Below, piece by piece: positions 12,479-21,759 of a stretch of 22,522 nucleotides of DNA. Under the pieces are notes generated by a model. That model saw nothing but the letters and a program-made list of their open reading frames with translations, was not told where the DNA came from and did not search any database. The stretch's first letter is position 1; every line of letters begins with the position of its first letter. Origin of the DNA: a virus; the IMG/VR virus record IMGVR_UViG_3300006805_002715, positions 1-22,522 of that record, one strand, 5' to 3'. The translations under genes were made by a program, and so were the position numbers.

Positions 12479-12503
12479 GTGTCCCGATCCTTTCAAGGGA
12501 AAC

Positions 12504-12535
12504 GCACGGACGGGGCGACATTGCCCCGTCCGTGC
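12504..12535 (-). terminator. Strong hairpin after the decoration gene, terminator or attenuator
   Basis: A perfect 13-bp stem (GCACGGACGGGGC paired with GCCCCGTCCGTGC) closes a six-base loop. On the minus strand it starts nine bases after the decoration protein stop (12544) and is followed by GTTTCCC, so only a short T run is present. Its position right after the most highly expressed capsid genes suggests partial termination or protection of the upstream mRNA end, with read-through into the next genes. Confidence 0.65.
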
Positions 12536-12543
12536 CGTGTCTG

Positions 12544-13284: not shown

Positions 13285-14262
13285 TTACGAAATGGCCGAC
13301 ACGACGCCGAGGTAACGGCTGCCGTTGGTGCCAAGGTTGCCAAACGTCTCGGTCACGTAGACGCGAGTCATCTGGTTTGAGGGCGAGACGGGTTCTTTCA
13401 TCTTCATCCACGCGCCCGCAAGATACATGAGCTTCAGATACTTCGGGTTCACGAACCGCAGTTCGCTCGCCGCCGCATCTTCGTCGTAGAACAACGCCGC
13501 GCCCTTGAACTGGATCGCGTCGTTCAAGAAGGCAATGTCGCCGCCCGTGGCGCGGGCATCGCGTTCGATCTTCTCCACCGCCACCAGCAACGACTCGTAG
13601 CCCTCAAACGTGGCGCGGTCGGTGATGGCCGCTGTCGGCGTAGATTCCACACCGCCGAGCGAGCACTGGTTGTAGGTCGTGGTCATCGACGTGCGCAGAT
13701 TGTCGAAGGCCGTCGAGGTCTTCGTGCCCGCGTTCTGACGATTGCGCCAGAACGAGAACGTCGCCCGGTTGATCCCGCCGACCGTGCCCGTGGTGGGCGT
13801 GGCCGAGATGATCTTCTGGATACCGTCGAAGTCCTTGCCGCCGTTGCCCGTGCCGTCGCCGTTGAGCATGACGTTGAGTGACGCGATGGCCGAGTTCTTG
13901 CCGTTCTCGAGCTTCGATTCGAGAATGTCGATCTTGCGGTTGGCCTCGGCGTTACGCGCCAATTCCAAGTCGCTGAAGACAATCGTGCCGGCCGCGATCT
14001 TCTGATCGTAGCGGGCGCAATCGAACACGTCGATACGGGTCGTGTCGAGCGTCTCAAACTCGCCGTAGCTCTTGAACGTGGTGTTCTGCGCGTATTCGAT
14101 GGTCATCTCAAAAAGACGGCCACCAGGCACCTGTTCCTTGAAGCCTTCGTCACCGAGGGCGTAGAACAGCGCACGCGAGTTGAAGATGTTGTTCGTCGGT
14201 TTCTTGCCAACGACCGCTTCCCAGAGGGTCGCAATTGTTTGGCCCTGATTCGGTTCTGACAT
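13285..14262 (-). CDS. Major capsid protein (HK97-fold type)
   Basis: This 325-residue protein is the expected size for a capsid subunit and sits between scaffold and decoration genes. The N-terminal half contains FEMTIEYAQNTTFKSYGEFETL (about 47-68), which fits an E-loop-like strand pair. It is followed by a long helix (FSDLELARNAEANRKIDILESK, the spine-helix position) and an Ala/Asn/Gly-rich central domain. The C-terminus has strand-rich DIAFLNDAIQFKGAALFYDED and ends YLGVVSAIS. The HK97 fold has no catalytic signature, so identity rests on order, length and secondary-structure pattern. The ribosome site before ATG 14262 is weak (CGAG), unusual for a gene that must be highly expressed. Confidence 0.85.
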   Translation of the reverse strand: MSEPNQGQTIATLWEAVVGKKPTNNIFNSRALFYALGDEGFKEQVPGGRLFEMTIEYAQNTTFKSYGEFETLDTTRIDVFDCARYDQKIAAGTIVFSDLELARNAEANRKIDILESKLENGKNSAIASLNVMLNGDGTGNGGKDFDGIQKIISATPTTGTVGGINRATFSFWRNRQNAGTKTSTAFDNLRTSMTTTYNQCSLGGVESTPTAAITDRATFEGYESLLVAVEKIERDARATGGDIAFLNDAIQFKGAALFYDEDAAASELRFVNPKYLKLMYLAGAWMKMKEPVSPSNQMTRVYVTETFGNLGTNGSRYLGVVSAIS

Positions 14263-14264
14263 GA

Positions 14265-14296
14265 CTACTCGTTAGCCCGATCCGGCGCGTGAGTAG
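14265..14296 (-). promoter_or_regulatory. Inverted repeat in the leader of the capsid gene
   Basis: CTACTC (14265-14270) and GAGTAG (14291-14296) are complementary 6-base arms separated by 20 bases, just before the capsid ATG at 14262. On the minus-strand mRNA the hairpin would include the weak GAG ribosome-binding bases, so it could modulate capsid translation. The arms are short and the loop long, so this is a weak call. Confidence 0.25.
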
Positions 14297-14346
14297 ATGT
14301 TGCCATGCGGGGCACTGACGCCGCCACACGAGCGAAACGAACGCGA

Positions 14347-15330
14347 CTAGCCGAACACTCGGTCTGCCGCTGCCGCTCCGCCATGTTGCAAGATCGCATC
14401 TTTGAACGTCTTCACAGGGGCAGCCGTTCCCCCGCGTGACACACTGCCCGCAGGCCGTGCGGTCGTGGCTTCGCCCTTCCGTTTGAGTTCTTCAAGCAGA
14501 CTCGTCCGCTCGCGCTCTCGAATGGTGGGTCGATACGACTCTCGGTAGACTTTCAAATACGCGCCTTCCAACGAATACCGCTTGTCTTTCGCCATCAGGG
14601 ATTTCAGCTGTGGCTCAAGTTCTGGGAAGCCTTCCCACTCTTTCCGAGCGGTGTCGACAATCGACTTGGCTTCTTGCATCTGCTTCGCCTGAATCGCTTC
14701 GATCTGCCGCGCCTCGGATTCTTGCGTGAGGGGCTGAATCTTCGCGTCAATCTGGGCTTGCAGAGCTTGCATCATCTGGCCGACACGTTCGGCGCTGTAG
14801 GCGGTCGCCCCGTCCTCGGTCTGGAGGTCAGCGGCGGGTAGTTCAAAGCGGGCCGGCGTCGGCGCTTCCGTCTGCGGCGCGGCCAACATGCCCGCCTGAC
14901 GCAACTGCTGCCCGAAGGATTCATAGAACCCGATCGGATCGGACGCAATCGCCCGCAACTGTTCCATGCTGTCGCGGAAATCGTTCGGATCGACCGTGTT
15001 CCGCAGTTCGGCCCACGGGCCCAGCTCGGCTTCCCACTTGGCGCGTTCGGCGCTCAAGACCTGCGGATCAACCGGAGCCGCCGACGCCCGCGTCACGTCG
15101 TCAGTGACGGCCGGATCGGGACCAGTCGGACGCGAGGCCGACGACTCCGGTTCAGCCGCCGCTCGTGGCGTCAGCGGGTCGCTGGCCGTCGATTCCCAAC
15201 GGTCCAAGGCTTCACGAAAATTACGCGGAGATTCCGATGAGAAGTCACGCGACTGTGGCGCAGGTGCGCTCTCGCTCGTCGATGGCGTGCTGGCTGGTGC
15301 TGTGGTGTCTACGACCGCCGCGTCACTCAT
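14347..15330 (-). CDS. Putative capsid scaffold protein
   Basis: This 327-residue protein has the classic scaffold pattern. Its first about 100 residues are disordered and rich in Pro, Ser, Ala and Thr. Long charged helices follow (for example MMQALQAQIDAKIQPLTQESEARQIEAIQAKQ split around residue 200, and RERERTSLLEELKRKGE around 275), and the C-terminus is short and basic to neutral. It lies directly upstream of the capsid gene, which is the usual place. Scaffolds guide procapsid assembly around the portal and then leave. GTGAG before ATG 15330 is a moderate ribosome site. The 18-bp palindrome at 15361 lies 31 bases before the start. No protease domain is visible. Confidence 0.8.
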   Translation of the reverse strand: MSDAAVVDTTAPASTPSTSESAPAPQSRDFSSESPRNFREALDRWESTASDPLTPRAAAEPESSASRPTGPDPAVTDDVTRASAAPVDPQVLSAERAKWEAELGPWAELRNTVDPNDFRDSMEQLRAIASDPIGFYESFGQQLRQAGMLAAPQTEAPTPARFELPAADLQTEDGATAYSAERVGQMMQALQAQIDAKIQPLTQESEARQIEAIQAKQMQEAKSIVDTARKEWEGFPELEPQLKSLMAKDKRYSLEGAYLKVYRESYRPTIRERERTSLLEELKRKGEATTARPAGSVSRGGTAAPVKTFKDAILQHGGAAAADRVFG

Positions 15331-15360: not shown

Positions 15361-15378
15361 GTGTCAAATATTTGACAC
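15361..15378. promoter_or_regulatory. Perfect 18-bp palindrome GTGTCAAATATTTGACAC, operator candidate (site A)
   Basis: GTGTCAAATATTTGACAC reads identically on both strands. It lies in the 52-base gap between the Cys-rich gene (stop at 15383) and the scaffold ATG (15330). Its length, full dyad symmetry and lack of a loop fit a dimeric DNA-binding protein better than a transcript hairpin. Related sites occur at 18435, 18456 and 20694. Confidence 0.65.
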
Positions 15379-15382
15379 GCCA

Positions 15383-16114
15383 TTAGTGCGTCACGCCTCG
15401 CCAAAACCGAATGCGGCATTGACACGTCATCACAATTTGTTCGGTCGACATCTCCAACTCGCAGGCTACGCGGCACCCGACGCAGTAGAGCAGATGGTTC
15501 AAGCGCAGCCCCCGCAGCGCCTCTTGCTCACGGTGCAGCAGCTTCGCGTCATCGTCCTGAATCAGCACGGTGGGCAGCAGTTTCGCGCCGTCTGGACCGA
15601 CGAGCGATCCTTCCGTGCGGTCGAGCGACGTGATGGCATCGGCGCGGGTGTAGCTCATGTCTGTCATACAGACATGCGCCCGCACACGGTTGTGGCAGTG
15701 AATCGCCATGCCGCTATTGCCGCGAATCGTCACGCGGCACCCGCTCGGCGCGCCTTGCTCGAAACACACGTCACAGTGCAGCGCCTCTTGCAAACCGTAA
15801 CGCTGAAACACGCGGCCCACGGCAAATAACGTCCGCGTCTGCCACTCCGTCAGATCCGGTTCAATCTCGATGGGCTTCTCTGGCGCGGTTTCGACCAAAT
15901 CGACCGGATGCACCTCATCCGGCGCAATGTCGCTCTCCTGCTGATCCTTCATCCGCAGTCCGCGACGTTTTAGTTCACGCTTGAACTCCGTTTTTGTGGT
16001 CGCTTTGACCGGCGTCGGTCCGAGATTCTGCAACATCCCGCCTTCGAGCTTGTCGATGTCCCACAACTCGTCCGTGTGAATGGCCGGCGATACCGGCTTC
16101 AGATCGTCGCTCAC
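15383..16114 (-). CDS. Cys-rich, zinc-ribbon-like protein between portal and scaffold
   Basis: This 243-residue protein starts at the GTG in a GTGA overlap (16111-16114); ATG codons at 16138 and 16153 lack ribosome sites. The N-terminal part has a basic helix KTEFKRELKRRGLRMKDQQE (about 41-60). The rest carries ten Cys: C114-x2-C117, C126, C140, C149, then C211-x2-C214, C218, C231 and C233, with His at 113, 139, 141 and 147. Two metal-binding clusters are likely. No nuclease or redox motif is recognised. The position between portal and scaffold suggests a capsid assembly or packaging accessory. A transcription-related role, like that of other phage zinc-ribbon proteins, cannot be excluded. 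Confidence 0.7.
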   Translation of the reverse strand: MSDDLKPVSPAIHTDELWDIDKLEGGMLQNLGPTPVKATTKTEFKRELKRRGLRMKDQQESDIAPDEVHPVDLVETAPEKPIEIEPDLTEWQTRTLFAVGRVFQRYGLQEALHCDVCFEQGAPSGCRVTIRGNSGMAIHCHNRVRAHVCMTDMSYTRADAITSLDRTEGSLVGPDGAKLLPTVLIQDDDAKLLHREQEALRGLRLNHLLYCVGCRVACELEMSTEQIVMTCQCRIRFWRGVTH

Positions 16115-16374
16115 GGTCGCACCGGTTTGCATGACGTTGTGGGGTGATCGCATCGCCGCATGGCGTCAGTGATCGGGGCACGCTCACCCGCATAGTCACA
16201 TACGGCACACACGAGCTGCCATGCCCACGCTCCGCGACGCCCTAGACCAAACCACTCGCGCCAACTCAACCCATCACGCGACATGATGCTGTGCCACGGG
16301 CGCTCGGCCCATGTCTGTTGACCAATGCCAACCCATCGGCGATAACTCGCACGCCACCGTCGATATACGCTCAC
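16111..16374 (-). CDS. Small Trp- and Cys-rich protein
   Basis: This 87-residue protein opens with GTG in a GTGA overlap with the portal stop (16371-16374) and closes in another GTGA overlap with the next gene. It has eight Trp in its first 52 residues (YRRWRASYRRWVG, RRGAWAWQ) and four Cys in a C-x2-C...C-x6-C arrangement (C56, C59, C75, C82), with a His at 77, consistent with a small zinc site. It is very basic. No family is recognised. Two coupling overlaps make the gene itself convincing. It may act with the Cys-rich neighbour that follows. Confidence 0.65.
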   Translation of the reverse strand: MSVYRRWRASYRRWVGIGQQTWAERPWHSIMSRDGLSWREWFGLGRRGAWAWQLVCAVCDYAGERAPITDAMRRCDHPTTSCKPVRP

Positions 16375-18425
16375 TGCGGCCCCACTTTCGGCCCCGACCG
16401 TTCGCCCGTGCGGTCGGCGGCATGTTGGTCAATCGTTGGCACCTTATTCGCGGCCCCACCATGCGGCAACTGCGGGAACATCTGCCCGATGGTCTGCCCC
16501 ATCTGCACCGCGCCGTCGCTGATTGGCGTGCCGTTCGCTTTGAGCAATTCCTCAACCACCGGGAACTGCGGAGCCATCGGCGACAAGTCCATCCCCGTGA
16601 TCGACACGCTCATCTTCGGGCGATCGGGCGGCGGTTGCGGCGGCTGGGCGACTACGACGCGGCCTGGATCAAGGTGGAACTTCTGCGCCAACATCCGATC
16701 CAACTCAATGCGATTGAAATTGGGATCGTTCGCCGCGAGATTGTAGAGACGCAAGAACAACTCGCGCTCCTGTGAGGCATCCATCCGGATGGTCGAATCG
16801 GGACGCGCCTCAAACCGGAACAGCCCCTGAATCGCGGTCTTGTTCCACTGCGTCAGCACTTCGGCCCCATCCGGCCCGAGCATCGGCACAAAGTCGGCCT
16901 CATCGGCAAACTGCTGCATGAGCGAGAAAACCTTCTCGGATCCGCGCACATACCACCGCAGCACCTTCGCCCGTTCGGCACTCAGGCGCGAGTCGGTATT
17001 GTTCTGCATGATCGTGGCTTCGGTCGCCGTCTGCGCGTCGGTCGCTGTGCCGTTCTGATTCGCGCCGAGTGCCCACTCGCGGGCAATGTCGCGCTCAATG
17101 ATGTCTTGGAACGTGAAATTCTCACGCGGGAAACCGCTTTGCTGGACGCTCCCGATAATCTGGTTGCCGTCGCCCAGTAGCGGAATGATGCCTTGAATCT
17201 CGCCCTTTTCGAGGCGCTCAATCGTGGCCTTTGCTGATGGGTCGACCGACGTATTCACCCAGCGCAACGGCAGATTGCGTCGGCGCTGCTGCACCATCTG
17301 CGACCGCGAGAGCGATAACTCATCGACCTGTGCCCGGCTCATCGAACAATCAGACGGCGGGTAGGGATCGTCGCTCACATAGCGCAACGTCAGAATGTGA
17401 ATCGGATTACCGCGCATGCCGGCGACGACACGTCCACGCTTGTCGAGCACCTGGTAGGGCGAATCCCGATGCACGATGATCCGCGCCTGTGACCGATCGG
17501 CACGGCTCCCGCCGCGTCCCATCGCCAAAATCAACTGCGTGTAGCGTTCGGGGTCGGTGGCGTCCACGCGGTAGACGCTCGACTTATACCAGACCTCAAT
17601 CGCCCGGACCATGTTCGGCGTGGCCTGCTGGTCAGGGTCAGTCGTCAGTCGGTTGTCGTCCTGCGAGACCGTCGCGGCTTCGTAGTCGACGCCGTAGCGT
17701 GCCTTGAACGTGTCTTTGTCCGTCAGCACTTCGCGCCACAGATACGGCGCTTGGTCGTAGTCGGACCCGGTAAACGACGCCGGAATGCCGACCTTCATCG
17801 GCGTTTCGCGCTCCCAGAAATACGACTCGCGGATGATGTTCGGGAGACGGTTCACCAGCGGTTCGCCCGTCTCCGGGTCCACCGCCGGCCGCTGTGCCGG
17901 TTGGCCGTCTGGCCCCAGCATTGGTTGGCCCGTAAACTCATCCGTGACGGGCTCCATCACCGGCTCTTCGATATCCGGCCCACGGAAGCACTCGTAGCCA
18001 ATGACGCTGACACCGAGACCGGCCGGGCAAATCAAATCCGTGAGGATCTGATCGACCGTCGCCATCACATTGATGTCGTAGTTCAGCTTGTAATTGATGA
18101 CCGCTTGGGCCAACGGCGCGGCCTGCACATCATCGACGCGCTTGGCCTGCAACTGCAATTCGGGTGACTGGAAGAACAGCAGCGCCTTTTTGGCTTCCGT
18201 GTTCGCGTAGTCAATATTGACGTTGATCGTCTCGCGGCCAGAAATGCCAAACTTCGTGAGACTGGCCCCCGTCGCGTTCTTGTAGCGCCGGATGTTCTCT
18301 TTCCAGAGCGGTTCTTTCTTCTTCCGCAGCGTCTCATCGCGCTGAATGGCGCTCACCCACGCCGTCAATGACCCCGCGCCCTCTTCCGGCAGCGGCAACA
18401 GTCCCAGATCGTCGGGCGCATCCAT
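16371..18425 (-). CDS. Portal protein
   Basis: This 684-residue protein follows the large terminase and fits podovirus-type portals (about 500-750 residues). The N-terminal region has a helix RKKKEPLWKENIRRYKNATG (about 36-55), then strand-loop-helix INVNIDYANTEAKKALLFF. The middle holds an acidic Pro-rich insert (about 155-200, GPDGQPAQRPAVDPETG). A long helical clip/stem region spans about 370-520 (DELSLSRSQMVQQRR, then TDAQTATEATIMQNN, then ERAKVLRWYVRGSEKVFSLMQQ). The C-terminus is Pro-rich (PPQPPPDRPK) and helical. Portals form the 12-mer ring at one capsid vertex through which DNA enters and leaves. The ATG at 18425 has no clear Shine-Dalgarno sequence, and palindrome B begins ten bases upstream. 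Confidence 0.92.
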   Translation of the reverse strand: MDAPDDLGLLPLPEEGAGSLTAWVSAIQRDETLRKKKEPLWKENIRRYKNATGASLTKFGISGRETINVNIDYANTEAKKALLFFQSPELQLQAKRVDDVQAAPLAQAVINYKLNYDINVMATVDQILTDLICPAGLGVSVIGYECFRGPDIEEPVMEPVTDEFTGQPMLGPDGQPAQRPAVDPETGEPLVNRLPNIIRESYFWERETPMKVGIPASFTGSDYDQAPYLWREVLTDKDTFKARYGVDYEAATVSQDDNRLTTDPDQQATPNMVRAIEVWYKSSVYRVDATDPERYTQLILAMGRGGSRADRSQARIIVHRDSPYQVLDKRGRVVAGMRGNPIHILTLRYVSDDPYPPSDCSMSRAQVDELSLSRSQMVQQRRRNLPLRWVNTSVDPSAKATIERLEKGEIQGIIPLLGDGNQIIGSVQQSGFPRENFTFQDIIERDIAREWALGANQNGTATDAQTATEATIMQNNTDSRLSAERAKVLRWYVRGSEKVFSLMQQFADEADFVPMLGPDGAEVLTQWNKTAIQGLFRFEARPDSTIRMDASQERELFLRLYNLAANDPNFNRIELDRMLAQKFHLDPGRVVVAQPPQPPPDRPKMSVSITGMDLSPMAPQFPVVEELLKANGTPISDGAVQMGQTIGQMFPQLPHGGAANKVPTIDQHAADRTGERSGPKVGPQ

Positions 18426-18434
18426 TGCCGGATA

Positions 18435-18452
18435 GTGTCAACGAATTGACAC
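18435..18452. promoter_or_regulatory. Palindrome GTGTCAACGAATTGACAC, operator candidate (site B)
   Basis: Seven-base arms GTGTCAA and TTGACAC flank a four-base centre. It lies in the 49-base gap between the terminase stop (18475) and the portal ATG (18425), covering the place where a ribosome-binding site would normally be. It shares the GTGTCA-N6-TGACAC frame with site A. Confidence 0.6.
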
Positions 18453-18455
18453 GCA

Positions 18456-18473
18456 ATGTCAAATCATTGACGC
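18456..18473. promoter_or_regulatory. Imperfect palindrome ATGTCAAATCATTGACGC, operator candidate (site C)
   Basis: GTCAA and TTGAC arms surround a four-base centre in the same 18-bp frame as sites A and B. It begins 21 bp from the start of site B, two helical turns, so dimers on both sites would sit on the same face of DNA. It ends one base before the terminase stop codon. Confidence 0.5.
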
Positions 18474-18474
18474 T

Positions 18475-20070
18475 TTACCACGTCGATTCTGCCGCCGCGC
18501 TCCGTGCCGCCGCCAACGCCGCGCCCATCGTGCCCGCTTCCGGTTCCGGATCGGCAACGATCGTCGGCGCACTCCGACTATGCGCCCCGTAGCGGAACGT
18601 ATCGAGCGCATGGTCGTCGGGATCGTCGATATCCTCGGCATTGTTCGCCGCGCTCATCACCCGCCCCACCGACCGCACGAGATAGTGACAATCGGGCGAC
18701 ACCGTCACCCACGGCACAGCCGGTTCAAGCCCACGCACCGGACCCATCAGCGCATGGAGACGATTCCACCCGAGCACGCGGTCATTCTTCGCCTTGACGA
18801 GGCCATACATCCCGGCTTTCATCAACGACTCGGCAATCGTCTCGCCCGTCTGCTGCGAGGTCTGCCACATCGCCGGATCAGCCGCCGTATACCGCATCTG
18901 CCCCGGCGTAATCCCCAGCTCTCGGTCAATCTCGGCCACGCCCACCGCCACCTCGGCCGGATCGCGGTCCTTGAACTTCCACTCCCGCGCCACATGCAAT
19001 CGGCCATCGGGCAAGCACGCCCACCACAGCACCACGCCCCACGCCACGCGGCCCCAATCCATCGACCGAAACCACGACAACCCATCGGTCAACGGCAGGT
19101 CCACGACGTGATACGGACGCCCGTCCACCATCGGACGCCACCGTCCGAAAAACATCCCCGGCACGACGTCCCAATTCCCGTGACGTAACTGCTCATACCG
19201 ATCGGCACTCAGAAACGCGAGCGACGTTTCGTAATTGCTATCAAGGTAGGGATTATCCTCCAACGTCGCCGGCACATACGCCCACTGCGACGGGTTATAC
19301 AACTCGCGGAACTTCGGCGCGAAATGCTCCCACTCGGGCGCATGGTTAATGAACAAGTCCTTAATGAGCTGCGCCGAAGGGCCACCAGGATTCGTCGCAA
19401 AGAAACACCACGGCCCCCCCGCCGCCTTAATCGCCTCGGTCGACGGCCCATTTGACCCACGCGCACGGGTCGTTAACTCCGGGATCAACAGCGGATTCAA
19501 CGTGGTCGCCTCATCGACGAAAATCTCGTCATACTCGGTCGACAGCAACCGCTGCAAGTCGTCCATGTCATCCGCATAGCCCGCGAAAATGTCCGACGTG
19601 ACCCCGCTCGGATGCCGAATCACCAAATGCTTCTCCGACACCCGCCAATCGCAATCGACCCCCAGCTTTTGCATCTCCGCCACTTCGCCGGGAAACTTGC
19701 TCAGGTGCGTCTTCTTCAACTCCTCTAACGACTTGCGAATCAGCAACCCCTGGTAGCCCGGATACGCCAACGCATGACGCCACAACCGCCCCTTGCGCCC
19801 ATACATCGACTTCGATCCACCCGCGGCGCCCCCAAACGTCACATACCGCGCCCGCAACTCATCAACCGAGACCTGAATCGGTAACGGCAACCACCACCAG
19901 CCGCTGCCCTTTCCCTGCTTCCGCTTGTCCTTCGGCGCAAACCGTATCCCATACGCCATCTGACGCTGACGACACGCCGACGTCTCGCACCACCACATCC
20001 CCGAATGCGACAACATCCGCCCACGGCACCACAAACACCGCACCGAGGGATGCGCGTCACCGTCCTGCAT
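18475..20070 (-). CDS. terL: Large terminase subunit (ATPase-nuclease) with N-terminal zinc ribbon
   Basis: This 531-residue protein is the DNA-packaging motor. The ATPase domain shows a Walker A motif GAAGGSKS (residues 81-88), a Walker B motif DEIFVDEA (181-188, with D186 and catalytic E187) and a coupling motif TNPGG (226-230). The C-terminal RNase H-like nuclease shows three acidic clusters: SMDWG (D338), ADPA (D398) and DDPDDHALD (485-490). In front of the ATPase is an extra segment with C12-x2-C15 and C28-x4-C33, a four-Cys zinc ribbon that most TerL proteins lack. The ATG at 20070 shares its A with the stop of the small upstream gene (TAATG). Starting later would remove the Cys pairs. 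Confidence 0.95.
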   Translation of the reverse strand: MQDGDAHPSVRCLWCRGRMLSHSGMWWCETSACRQRQMAYGIRFAPKDKRKQGKGSGWWWLPLPIQVSVDELRARYVTFGGAAGGSKSMYGRKGRLWRHALAYPGYQGLLIRKSLEELKKTHLSKFPGEVAEMQKLGVDCDWRVSEKHLVIRHPSGVTSDIFAGYADDMDDLQRLLSTEYDEIFVDEATTLNPLLIPELTTRARGSNGPSTEAIKAAGGPWCFFATNPGGPSAQLIKDLFINHAPEWEHFAPKFRELYNPSQWAYVPATLEDNPYLDSNYETSLAFLSADRYEQLRHGNWDVVPGMFFGRWRPMVDGRPYHVVDLPLTDGLSWFRSMDWGRVAWGVVLWWACLPDGRLHVAREWKFKDRDPAEVAVGVAEIDRELGITPGQMRYTAADPAMWQTSQQTGETIAESLMKAGMYGLVKAKNDRVLGWNRLHALMGPVRGLEPAVPWVTVSPDCHYLVRSVGRVMSAANNAEDIDDPDDHALDTFRYGAHSRSAPTIVADPEPEAGTMGAALAAARSAAAESTW

Positions 20071-20273
20071 TACGTAAACACCCTACGCGGCGAGTGGAAC
20101 GATTCTTCCAAAAATCGAGAAAGAAACCGCAGAGCTTCGTGTGTAATCATTAAAGTGTTTATATGCCCATGTCGATACGCCCGACTTAACTTCCGGCGCG
20201 TGTGATTCGACGGGCGACGACTGCGACCCGCATATGGACGCTGATACATGCCTGCATGACACCGACCAGTCAC
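20070..20273 (-). CDS. Small basic protein translationally coupled to terL
   Basis: This 67-residue protein is identified mainly by its junctions: it begins at GTG in a GTGA overlap with the preceding gene (20270-20273) and ends with TAATG shared with terL at 20070. The sequence is basic (RSRRPSNHTRRKLSRAYRHGH, residues about 18-38) and ends with an amphipathic helix (HEALRFLSRFLEESF). A later ATG at 20249 would give 59 residues. The DNA is less GC-rich than its neighbours. The size, charge and coupling to terL would suit a DNA-binding packaging cofactor, but no family is recognised. Confidence 0.5.
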   Translation of the reverse strand: MTGRCHAGMYQRPYAGRSRRPSNHTRRKLSRAYRHGHINTLMITHEALRFLSRFLEESFHSPRRVFT

Positions 20274-20503
20274 CGAAACTGCCCGTCCCACACCGTCGGA
20301 AATAGCCGCGCCTTCGCCGCCGCGACAGACTCCGGCGTCTTCTCCGTAAACGCCACACAGGAAAACGGCACGCCATCCACCATCATCGGCATCACGACCT
20401 CACCCATCTGAGGGTGCAGACACCGCGTCGAGACACCATACGACCGCATCAACGACCCGGCCCACACGCACGACCCGCATGAGCGAATAGGATTGTCAGG
20501 CAT
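20270..20503 (-). CDS. Small four-Cys protein at the head of the packaging operon
   Basis: This 77-residue protein (MPDNPIRSCGSCVWAG...) has C9-x2-C12, C28 (TRCLHPQ) and C49 (FSCVAF), a plausible single zinc site, and an alanine-rich C-terminal helix. The ATG at 20503 is preceded by GGGGTGA at good spacing. The frame is open further upstream, to an ATG at 20665, but that part runs through hairpins and a T/A-rich leader and does not read like protein. The stop overlaps the next gene by GTGA. No family is recognised. The Cys pattern is shared in style with other small proteins of this operon. Confidence 0.65.
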   Translation of the reverse strand: MPDNPIRSCGSCVWAGSLMRSYGVSTRCLHPQMGEVVMPMMVDGVPFSCVAFTEKTPESVAAAKARLFPTVWDGQFR

Positions 20504-20693
20504 TACAGCTTCACCCCGAGACGCTTGCTTCTGTTTGGTAATCGTCCGATCCACGACCACGCCTCCGTCTGCCAAAAATCTTAGCACACAAATCCAGTGC
20601 GGAACTGGGGTCCCCCCTTTTTGTCTTTGATCTGGTTGGGACCCTTTGGTCCCGTCCTGCTGCACGGCGCGATGTCACTGCTAGATTAACGCA
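20504..20693 (-). promoter_or_regulatory. Leader region with a GGGACC/GGTCCC hairpin
   Basis: If transcription starts near 20695, this is an untranslated leader of about 190 bases. It contains a six-base stem GGGACC-CTTT-GGTCCC at 20638-20653, a smaller inverted repeat CCAGT-GCGGA-ACTGG at 20594-20608, and a run of C and T between them. Neither hairpin is followed by a T run on the minus strand, so termination is not indicated. A structured leader or protein-binding RNA is possible. Confidence 0.35.
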
Positions 20694-20711
20694 GCGTCAA
20701 AATTATGACGC
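20694..20711. promoter_or_regulatory. Palindrome GCGTCAAAATTATGACGC, operator candidate (site D)
   Basis: Six-base arms GCGTCA and TGACGC flank six A/T bases. The frame is the same 18 bp as sites A to C (G-Y-GTCA-N6-TGAC-R-C). It covers the -10 box of a candidate leftward promoter, which is where a repressor operator would be expected. Confidence 0.5.
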
Positions 20712-20968: not shown

Positions 20969-21064
20969 CGCTGATTATGCGATAGGGCGGGATATCGCCG
21001 TAACTTACTGACAGAGTTACACTTACGCTGATAATGGCCTAGTTAACAGAAGTGCCATTATCAG
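20969..21064. repeat. CTGATWATG repeat and inverted-repeat cluster, possible packaging or operator site
   Basis: CGCTGATTATG (20969-20979) and CGCTGATAATG (21026-21036) are direct copies 57 bp apart. The second forms a perfect 11-bp inverted repeat, CTGATAATGGC (21028-21038) with GCCATTATCAG (21054-21064), separated by 15 bases that contain the palindrome GTTAAC (21042-21047). A further GTAAC...GTTAC pair lies at 21000-21020. The cluster begins 31 bp past the stop of the helix-turn-helix gene and is AT-richer than its surroundings. It could be a binding site of that protein (pac- or cosB-like), or an operator. Confidence 0.5.
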
Positions 21065-21094: not shown

Positions 21095-21634
21095 TCACTT
21101 TTCGTTAGTGATGACTTTCGCCTCAGCAAACGGGTCAGCGCCGTCAACGTTCACGACGCTCGTGCCAGTGCCGACCTGGATAATGATGGGCGACACGGGC
21201 GCTTGTTCTTGCGCGACCACTCCGGCCGCGGCTAGCCAATCTTTCGCTGGGCGATGGTCGCCTTTACGTGCCGCGATGGGCACAGCCTTGAGCCACTCAG
21301 AGGCCACTTTTCCTGCTTTCGCGTGAATAAGAAGGCGAGCGGCGTCTACGGTTGGCCGGTATCGGTTGGCGAGGTGTGAGATGGCGGGTTGTGAGCATCC
21401 AACGAGTTTGGCGATTTCTCGTTGTGTGACGCCTTCGGCAATTAGGGTGAGCGCCCTATTACGTTGAGCGACGGTGAGCTTACGGTAGGCGAGTCGTCCT
21501 TCTTCGTCTTGATAATCTTCAGGTGCGTCAAAATTAGAGTTTTGAGCGGTCAAAATCTGAGTCGTTGGAAGGTCAGGATCATGGCCTGCGGCGCCTGGTA
21601 TTTGGGTGGGTGCTGGTGTGGGTGTGTCGCTCAT
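21095..21634 (-). CDS. Helix-turn-helix protein, small terminase subunit candidate
   Basis: This 179-residue protein has a Pro/Thr-rich N-terminus and a clear helix-turn-helix at about residues 55-92 (NRALTLIAEGVTQREIAKLVGCSQ, split across the two helices). A helical region follows (AARLLIHAKAGKVASEWLKAV, about 98-118) that may oligomerise, then a beta-prone tail (IIIQVGTGTSVVNVDG). Small terminase subunits share this order: DNA-binding HTH, oligomerisation helices and a tail that contacts TerL. It is the only such gene near terL. A plain transcriptional regulator is the main alternative. There is no Shine-Dalgarno sequence; see the -10 element upstream. Confidence 0.65.
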   Translation of the reverse strand: MSDTPTPAPTQIPGAAGHDPDLPTTQILTAQNSNFDAPEDYQDEEGRLAYRKLTVAQRNRALTLIAEGVTQREIAKLVGCSQPAISHLANRYRPTVDAARLLIHAKAGKVASEWLKAVPIAARKGDHRPAKDWLAAAGVVAQEQAPVSPIIIQVGTGTSVVNVDGADPFAEAKVITNEK

Positions 21635-21729: not shown

Positions 21730-21759
21730 TTGACACCTTCTCGGGGAGACGTGTATATT
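21730..21759 (+). promoter_or_regulatory. Sigma70-type promoter for the plus-strand genes
   Basis: A perfect -35 box TTGACA (21730-21735) and a -10 box TATATT (21754-21759, five of six) are separated by 18 bases. Transcription should start near 21766, about 42 bases before the first plus-strand ATG. The -35 box extends to TTGACAC, the same as half of the 18-bp palindromes, but the other half-site is missing. Confidence 0.7.

Follow-up and report, generated by a model that had tools for sequence, protein, structure and literature searches.

The head operon and its palindromic sites

The window, by which we mean the whole stretch of DNA that was analysed, is a 22.5-kb IMG/VR phage record in which the head genes all run on the minus strand (Table 1). 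The genes for the scaffold position and for the small protein upstream of TerL gave no match in family searches. Four copies of a palindromic element, in its refined form TGTCAA-N4-TTGACA, lie in short gaps ahead of capsid and packaging genes. In the direction of the genes, the ATG of the scaffold-position gene is 30 bp downstream of site A, the portal ATG is 9 bp downstream of site B, and the GTG start of the small gene that precedes terL is 28 bp downstream of site D. Site C is the tandem partner behind site B at a spacing of 21 bp, or two helical turns, and one arm of site D deviates from the GTCAA/TTGAC core.

A preliminary description of this DNA had reported an 18-bp palindrome family of the form GTGTCA-N6-TGACAC, perfect at site A and in tandem 21 bp apart at sites B and C, and we recovered all four sites as described. 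The same description held that the gaps of the operon are filled by this element, which is true in part: sites A to D are all in noncoding gaps, but two gaps have none, one of 84 bp ahead of the capsid gene (14263-14346) and one of 47 bp at 12497-12543.

Table 1. Palindromic sites, genes and other features of the window
Feature	Position	Strand	Sequence or family match	Remark
Site A	15361..15378		GTGTCAAATATTTGACAC	Perfect 18-bp palindrome, exact GTGTCA-N6-TGACAC; matrix score 25.0
Site B	18435..18452		GTGTCAACGAATTGACAC	Exact GTGTCA-N6-TGACAC; matrix score 20.7
Site C	18456..18473		ATGTCAAATCATTGACGC	2 mismatches to GTGTCA-N6-TGACAC; matrix score 23.7
Site D	20694..20711		GCGTCAAAATTATGACGC	2 mismatches to GTGTCA-N6-TGACAC; matrix score 17.9
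Hairpin	12504..12535			14-bp, GC-rich, in the gap 12497-12543; terminator-like on both strands
Major capsid protein	13285..14262	-	phrog_9953, 3.3e-45; NF033394	Anchor for the comparison of relatives
Scaffold-position gene	14347..15330	-		Downstream of site A; between a 256-aa gene and the capsid gene
Portal gene	16371..18425	-	phrog_156 portal, 1.4e-4	Downstream of sites B and C
Terminase large subunit (TerL)	18475..20070	-	phrog_979, 1.2e-20	Upstream of sites B and C
Small ORF	20270..20665	-		From the ORF list; GTG start; downstream of site D
Inverted repeat	21028..21064		CTGATAATGGC-N15-GCCATTATCAG	Directly past the TerS stop
HTH protein, terminase small subunit (TerS) by position	21095..21634	-	HTH_38/HTH_23	Homologues in G002, G004, G006, G007 and G009
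Near-consensus sigma-70 promoter	21730..21759	+	TTGACA-N18-TATATT	Directed toward early-side ORFs

Occurrence in the window and in other viral sequences

The 18-mer as it was loosely defined at the outset does not stand out from background in the window, where 14 matches with up to three mismatches were found against 10.9 expected, which is the chance level. A different picture emerged with a 20-bp matrix built from 88 sites of other viral contigs. At a cut-off score of at least 15, it yielded four matches in the window that are exactly sites A to D (scores 17.9-25), while 300 dinucleotide shuffles of the window gave 8 such matches in total. The preliminary description had staked its case on the palindromes not being equally dense inside genes, and this expectation was borne out: all four sites are in the noncoding DNA outside predicted genes, which accounts for 8% of the window's length; the probability of this for four sites of four is about 4e-5.

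At least 120 IMG/VR stretches have tandem cores separated by any gap from 0 to 30, versus 15 for a composition-matched control, and pairs with the 21-bp spacing are found in 31 other viral contigs. Among the matches listed, tandem spacings form groups near 16-17, 19, 21, 23, 30-33 and 40-44, with the main peaks (21, 23, 30-33 and 40-44) near two, three and four helical turns. Most clusters among the matches listed (129 of 151) do not fall within ORFs of 90 aa or longer, and the genes that flank them are divergent in 27 cases versus convergent in 7. The small and large terminase subunits are the commonest named families among 144 neighbour proteins, and some arrays lie ahead of CobS-like ATPase genes (L026, L027). 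Site-bearing loci span a GC content of 24-71%; capsid, portal and TerL mark two of the phages matching the pattern (G025, G037) as distant relatives, and others, such as G022/G043, have a different, P22-like portal. A scan of genome contigs returned 18 matches, several of them in phage-like short MAG contigs or simple tandem repeats. ParB-family genes are found close to tandem pairs in three MAG contigs (L114:966-1760, L129:6617-7243, L130:1055-1852). Judged by its sequence, the same element is found in more than 100 further viral sequences, of which many are unrelated to this phage. Literature searches for the motif found no paper.

Conservation in related phages

Several capsid relatives at 58-67% identity share the core at the corresponding gap. 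The records G002-G009, which range from 9 to 42 kb, contain two to three sites each, at the scaffold, terL and pre-terL gaps, and the matrix found no sites outside these gaps. In a survey of positions across 68 capsid relatives, sites were located at -1.06 to -1.22 kb from the capsid start for the scaffold gap, at -4.1 kb for the portal gap (L298, at -4092) and at -6.2 to -7.6 kb on the terL side. The scaffold gap is also occupied in L044-L050, L169, L292 and L298, and with a weaker score in L328. Across the scaffold gaps of six relatives, the window included, the GTCAA...TTGAC arms are 100% identical, with ten invariant positions, and the arms are likewise 100% identical in the terL gaps of four relatives; the flanking columns of these conserved sites are on average 24-38% identical, with a value of about 25-30% at the scaffold gap. 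A degenerate partner precedes the scaffold site by exactly 21 bp in both G006 and G007.

The expectation that the palindromes would recur at the same gaps is upheld for some of the related phages, but their presence is patchy. Of 41 records of relatives and reference genomes, 14 have the core and 27, near neighbours among them, do not; sites are also missing from the phages nearest by terL (L003-L011), and GTCAAN4TTGAC was found in none of the 20 named phage genomes tested. Because the core is missing from so many of these records and from all of the named phages tested, the element must be dispensable for the head operon. In relatives without sites, no recurrent replacement palindrome family was found at exact 6-bp arms.

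Other repeats and structured elements occur in these phages. A different family of dyads, of the type CCGTTTCC...GGAAACGG (L132:39215, 41433, 1928, 16862), occurs in the distant relative MW202803, with two copies in gaps around the terminase genes. Stenotrophomonas phage BUCT555 has three GTTCCACGTGGAAC sites (L131:473, 2371, 37885), which we take to resemble parS of the Pseudomonas type. The sequence TCTGATAATGG(C/T)CGTTA recurs downstream of terS in G004, G009 and L295/L296, and a Type-P5 twister ribozyme (Rfam RF02684) is located near terS in phage G006 (L079:8032-8089, minus strand).

The element as a probable duplex-DNA site

An inverted repeat ahead of a gene may act in the transcript, and the arms of the element could pair around a 4-nt loop, with site B only 9 bp before the portal ATG. 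We nevertheless regard RNA hairpins that serve processing, translation control or termination as extremely unlikely. On the sense strand, the outer pair is T..A in 69 cases, T..G in 39, C..G in 39 and C..A in 34. A C..A mismatch is about as common as a U.G pair, and because the T..G wobble is not favoured over C..A, selection appears to act on duplex-DNA half-sites. The four central positions pair less often than expected (0.25-0.26 observed versus 0.33-0.35). Intrinsic terminators have a GC-rich stem and a T run, and the sites were rejected as such: they have no T run, sites A to D are not listed by a terminator scan of the window, and few clusters among the matches listed have convergent flanks. 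The earlier argument that the palindromes are not terminators therefore stands. In form, the element looks like the kind of dyad to which a symmetric protein binds.

Comparison with known systems

The preliminary description had likened the sites to the stoperators of mycobacteriophage L5, repressor-type sites that stop elongation when bound, and in placement the likeness holds, as both occupy short intergenic gaps; this holds for all four sites of the window and, among the matches listed, for the 129 clusters noted above. In other respects the two differ. Stoperators of the L5 type are 13-bp sites that lack symmetry, each bind a monomer, are oriented with transcription and number more than twenty per genome (PMC9283540). 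The phage sites described here are two-fold symmetric rather than asymmetric 13-bp elements, number one to four cores per near-complete related genome, and adjoin gene starts. A related hypothesis is that they are immunity operators or stoperators of a phage CI-type repressor, scattered so as to silence the late genes of the prophage. The relatives are temperate, with integrase, cI-like and cro-like genes, and the sites are in late-gene gaps. However, no such palindrome is present between cI and cro in G004, G007 and G009, matrix scans list none there, and the symmetry and small number of the sites set them apart from those of L5; we consider this hypothesis improbable. What we have is, on the comparative evidence, a real, conserved, phage-borne family of putative operators, for which the stoperator analogy holds in placement and goes no further.

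The closest published geometry that we found is that of CooA, a member of the CRP/FNR family, with the site consensus TGTCGGCNNGCCGACA (PMC545781). Both are 16-bp dyads whose outer arms are TGTC/GACA and lie equally far apart, and the core has the TGTCxx/xxGACA arms spaced by 4 that characterise CooA-like operators. Nine viral loci have mixed forms, TGTCGG-N4-TTGACA. Unlike CooA sites, the element has AA/TT rather than GG/CC in the inner arm, forms tandem phased arrays and is borne by phages, and among the phages searched no CRP-type gene tracks the sites.

The sites resemble parS in being palindromes of about 16 bp, but their sequence differs and ParB (PF02195) is absent from most site-bearing phages. 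A further likeness is to the FleQ box of Pseudomonas, GTCAnTAAAtTGAC, which is bound by a protein that can both activate and repress; it has the same GTCA-N6-TGAC arms and AT-rich centre. The phage sites differ in being spread over the whole GC range given above, and the Fis-type HTH_8 domain (PF02954) is not common to site-bearing phages; a host FleQ may remain a candidate. The IHF consensus, WATCAA-N4-TTR, shares the TCAA-N4-TT geometry. IHF was provisionally set aside, because the outer G and C never vary in lineage A and the element has the symmetry expected for a homodimer.

Candidate regulators

Iterative profile comparison of the 1194 ORFs of five genomes found sharing across lineages only for head and tail genes and a cytosine methyltransferase, and no regulator. 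Family searches in site-bearing and site-free genomes covered sigma region 4, HTH_8, ParB_N, CRP-type HTH and HTH_31, and none of these tracks the sites. The TerS-like HTH protein of the window was weighed as a binder of the sites and is disfavoured.

The association of the sites with terminase genes raises the possibility that they are packaging signals, of the pac or cos type, bound by a ring of the small terminase subunit. Clusters often adjoin terS or terL and are helically phased. Sites are nonetheless found at the scaffold and portal gaps as well, kilobases from terS; the TerS recognition helices vary among site-bearing relatives (SQPAISHLANRY, TQQSVCNIIAQH, SHQRVVDILRRS) while the sites are constant; and TerS of a similar type also turns up among relatives that lack the sites. 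We give this explanation little credence.

Phages of lineage A have a FliA/WhiG-family sigma factor gene in the early region, in some relatives at its end (L075:2717-3400, plus strand; G009 22422-23252, plus strand), and INPHARED contains almost no phage gene similar to it. The sites could then be the -35 elements of promoters for such a sigma factor. Gene and sites occur together in G004, G006, G007 and G009, and the TCAA arm is at a FliA-like distance, as judged by the familiar FliA spacing, from some putative -10 elements. Against this, sigma region 4 was not found in site-bearing G074 (37.9 kb, with sites in the scaffold and portal gaps) or G095, the sigma factor is absent also from site-bearing G022, G028, G037 and others, and the sites of sigma factors are not palindromic, all of which makes it very unlikely that the sites are promoters of this kind.

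A model for operator function

We propose instead, with good though not complete confidence, that the palindromes are operators for a two-fold symmetric DNA-binding regulator. The palindrome is probably a docking site for a gene regulator; we infer its binding by a protein, the action of that protein on transcription and the sign of this action. The predicted regulator would bind as a dimer to a site of about 16 bp, YGTCAA-WWWW-TTGACR, and at tandem sites the bound copies would lie on one face of the helix. With sites 9-30 bp ahead of the scaffold, portal and pre-terL start codons, this regulator would govern separate transcription starts inside the head and packaging operon. Most likely it is encoded by the host, or is a fast-evolving phage protein that may have diverged beyond the reach of family searches.

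The sequences around the sites would be compatible with either direction of control. A conserved promoter that faces away from the late genes is present in three relatives (L076:7617, L079:10397, L083:7970) and consists of TTGACA or CTGACA, a 17-bp spacer and TAGCCT; the pre-terL site of these phages overlaps its -35 element or adjoins it. The promoter is followed by AGATCNAGATCT and then by no conserved ORF directly downstream, and its product is possibly a small or antisense RNA. Binding at this site should repress. The terL gaps of G004, G006 and G009 have a TAGACT hexamer 8-9 bp after the site. Across the late sites, no -10 element was found at a constant distance, with TAGACT-like sequences at 8-9 bp after only some lineage A sites. 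Other lineages have a weak excess of TATAAT 40-47 bp after the site, which is inflated by homologous contigs and, once these are taken into account, not significant; a TATAAT at this distance downstream would suit an activator. By inference, a dual regulator that both activates and represses fits best.

A more sweeping hypothesis, which we hold to be doubtful, is that one operator serves as the late-gene control site in many unrelated tailed phages whose hosts differ widely in GC content, and that it is gained or lost with a change of host because a conserved regulator of the host reads it. If this is true, the shared operator would be an input of host state into the expression of capsid and packaging genes.

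To our knowledge, there has been almost no study of how environmental phages control their late genes. A conserved, helically phased operator beside the packaging and capsid genes of phages whose terminases and capsids are dissimilar would suggest that many phages share or exploit one regulator, and finding that regulator would provide a handle on the late transcription, and possibly the host assignment, of uncultured phages.
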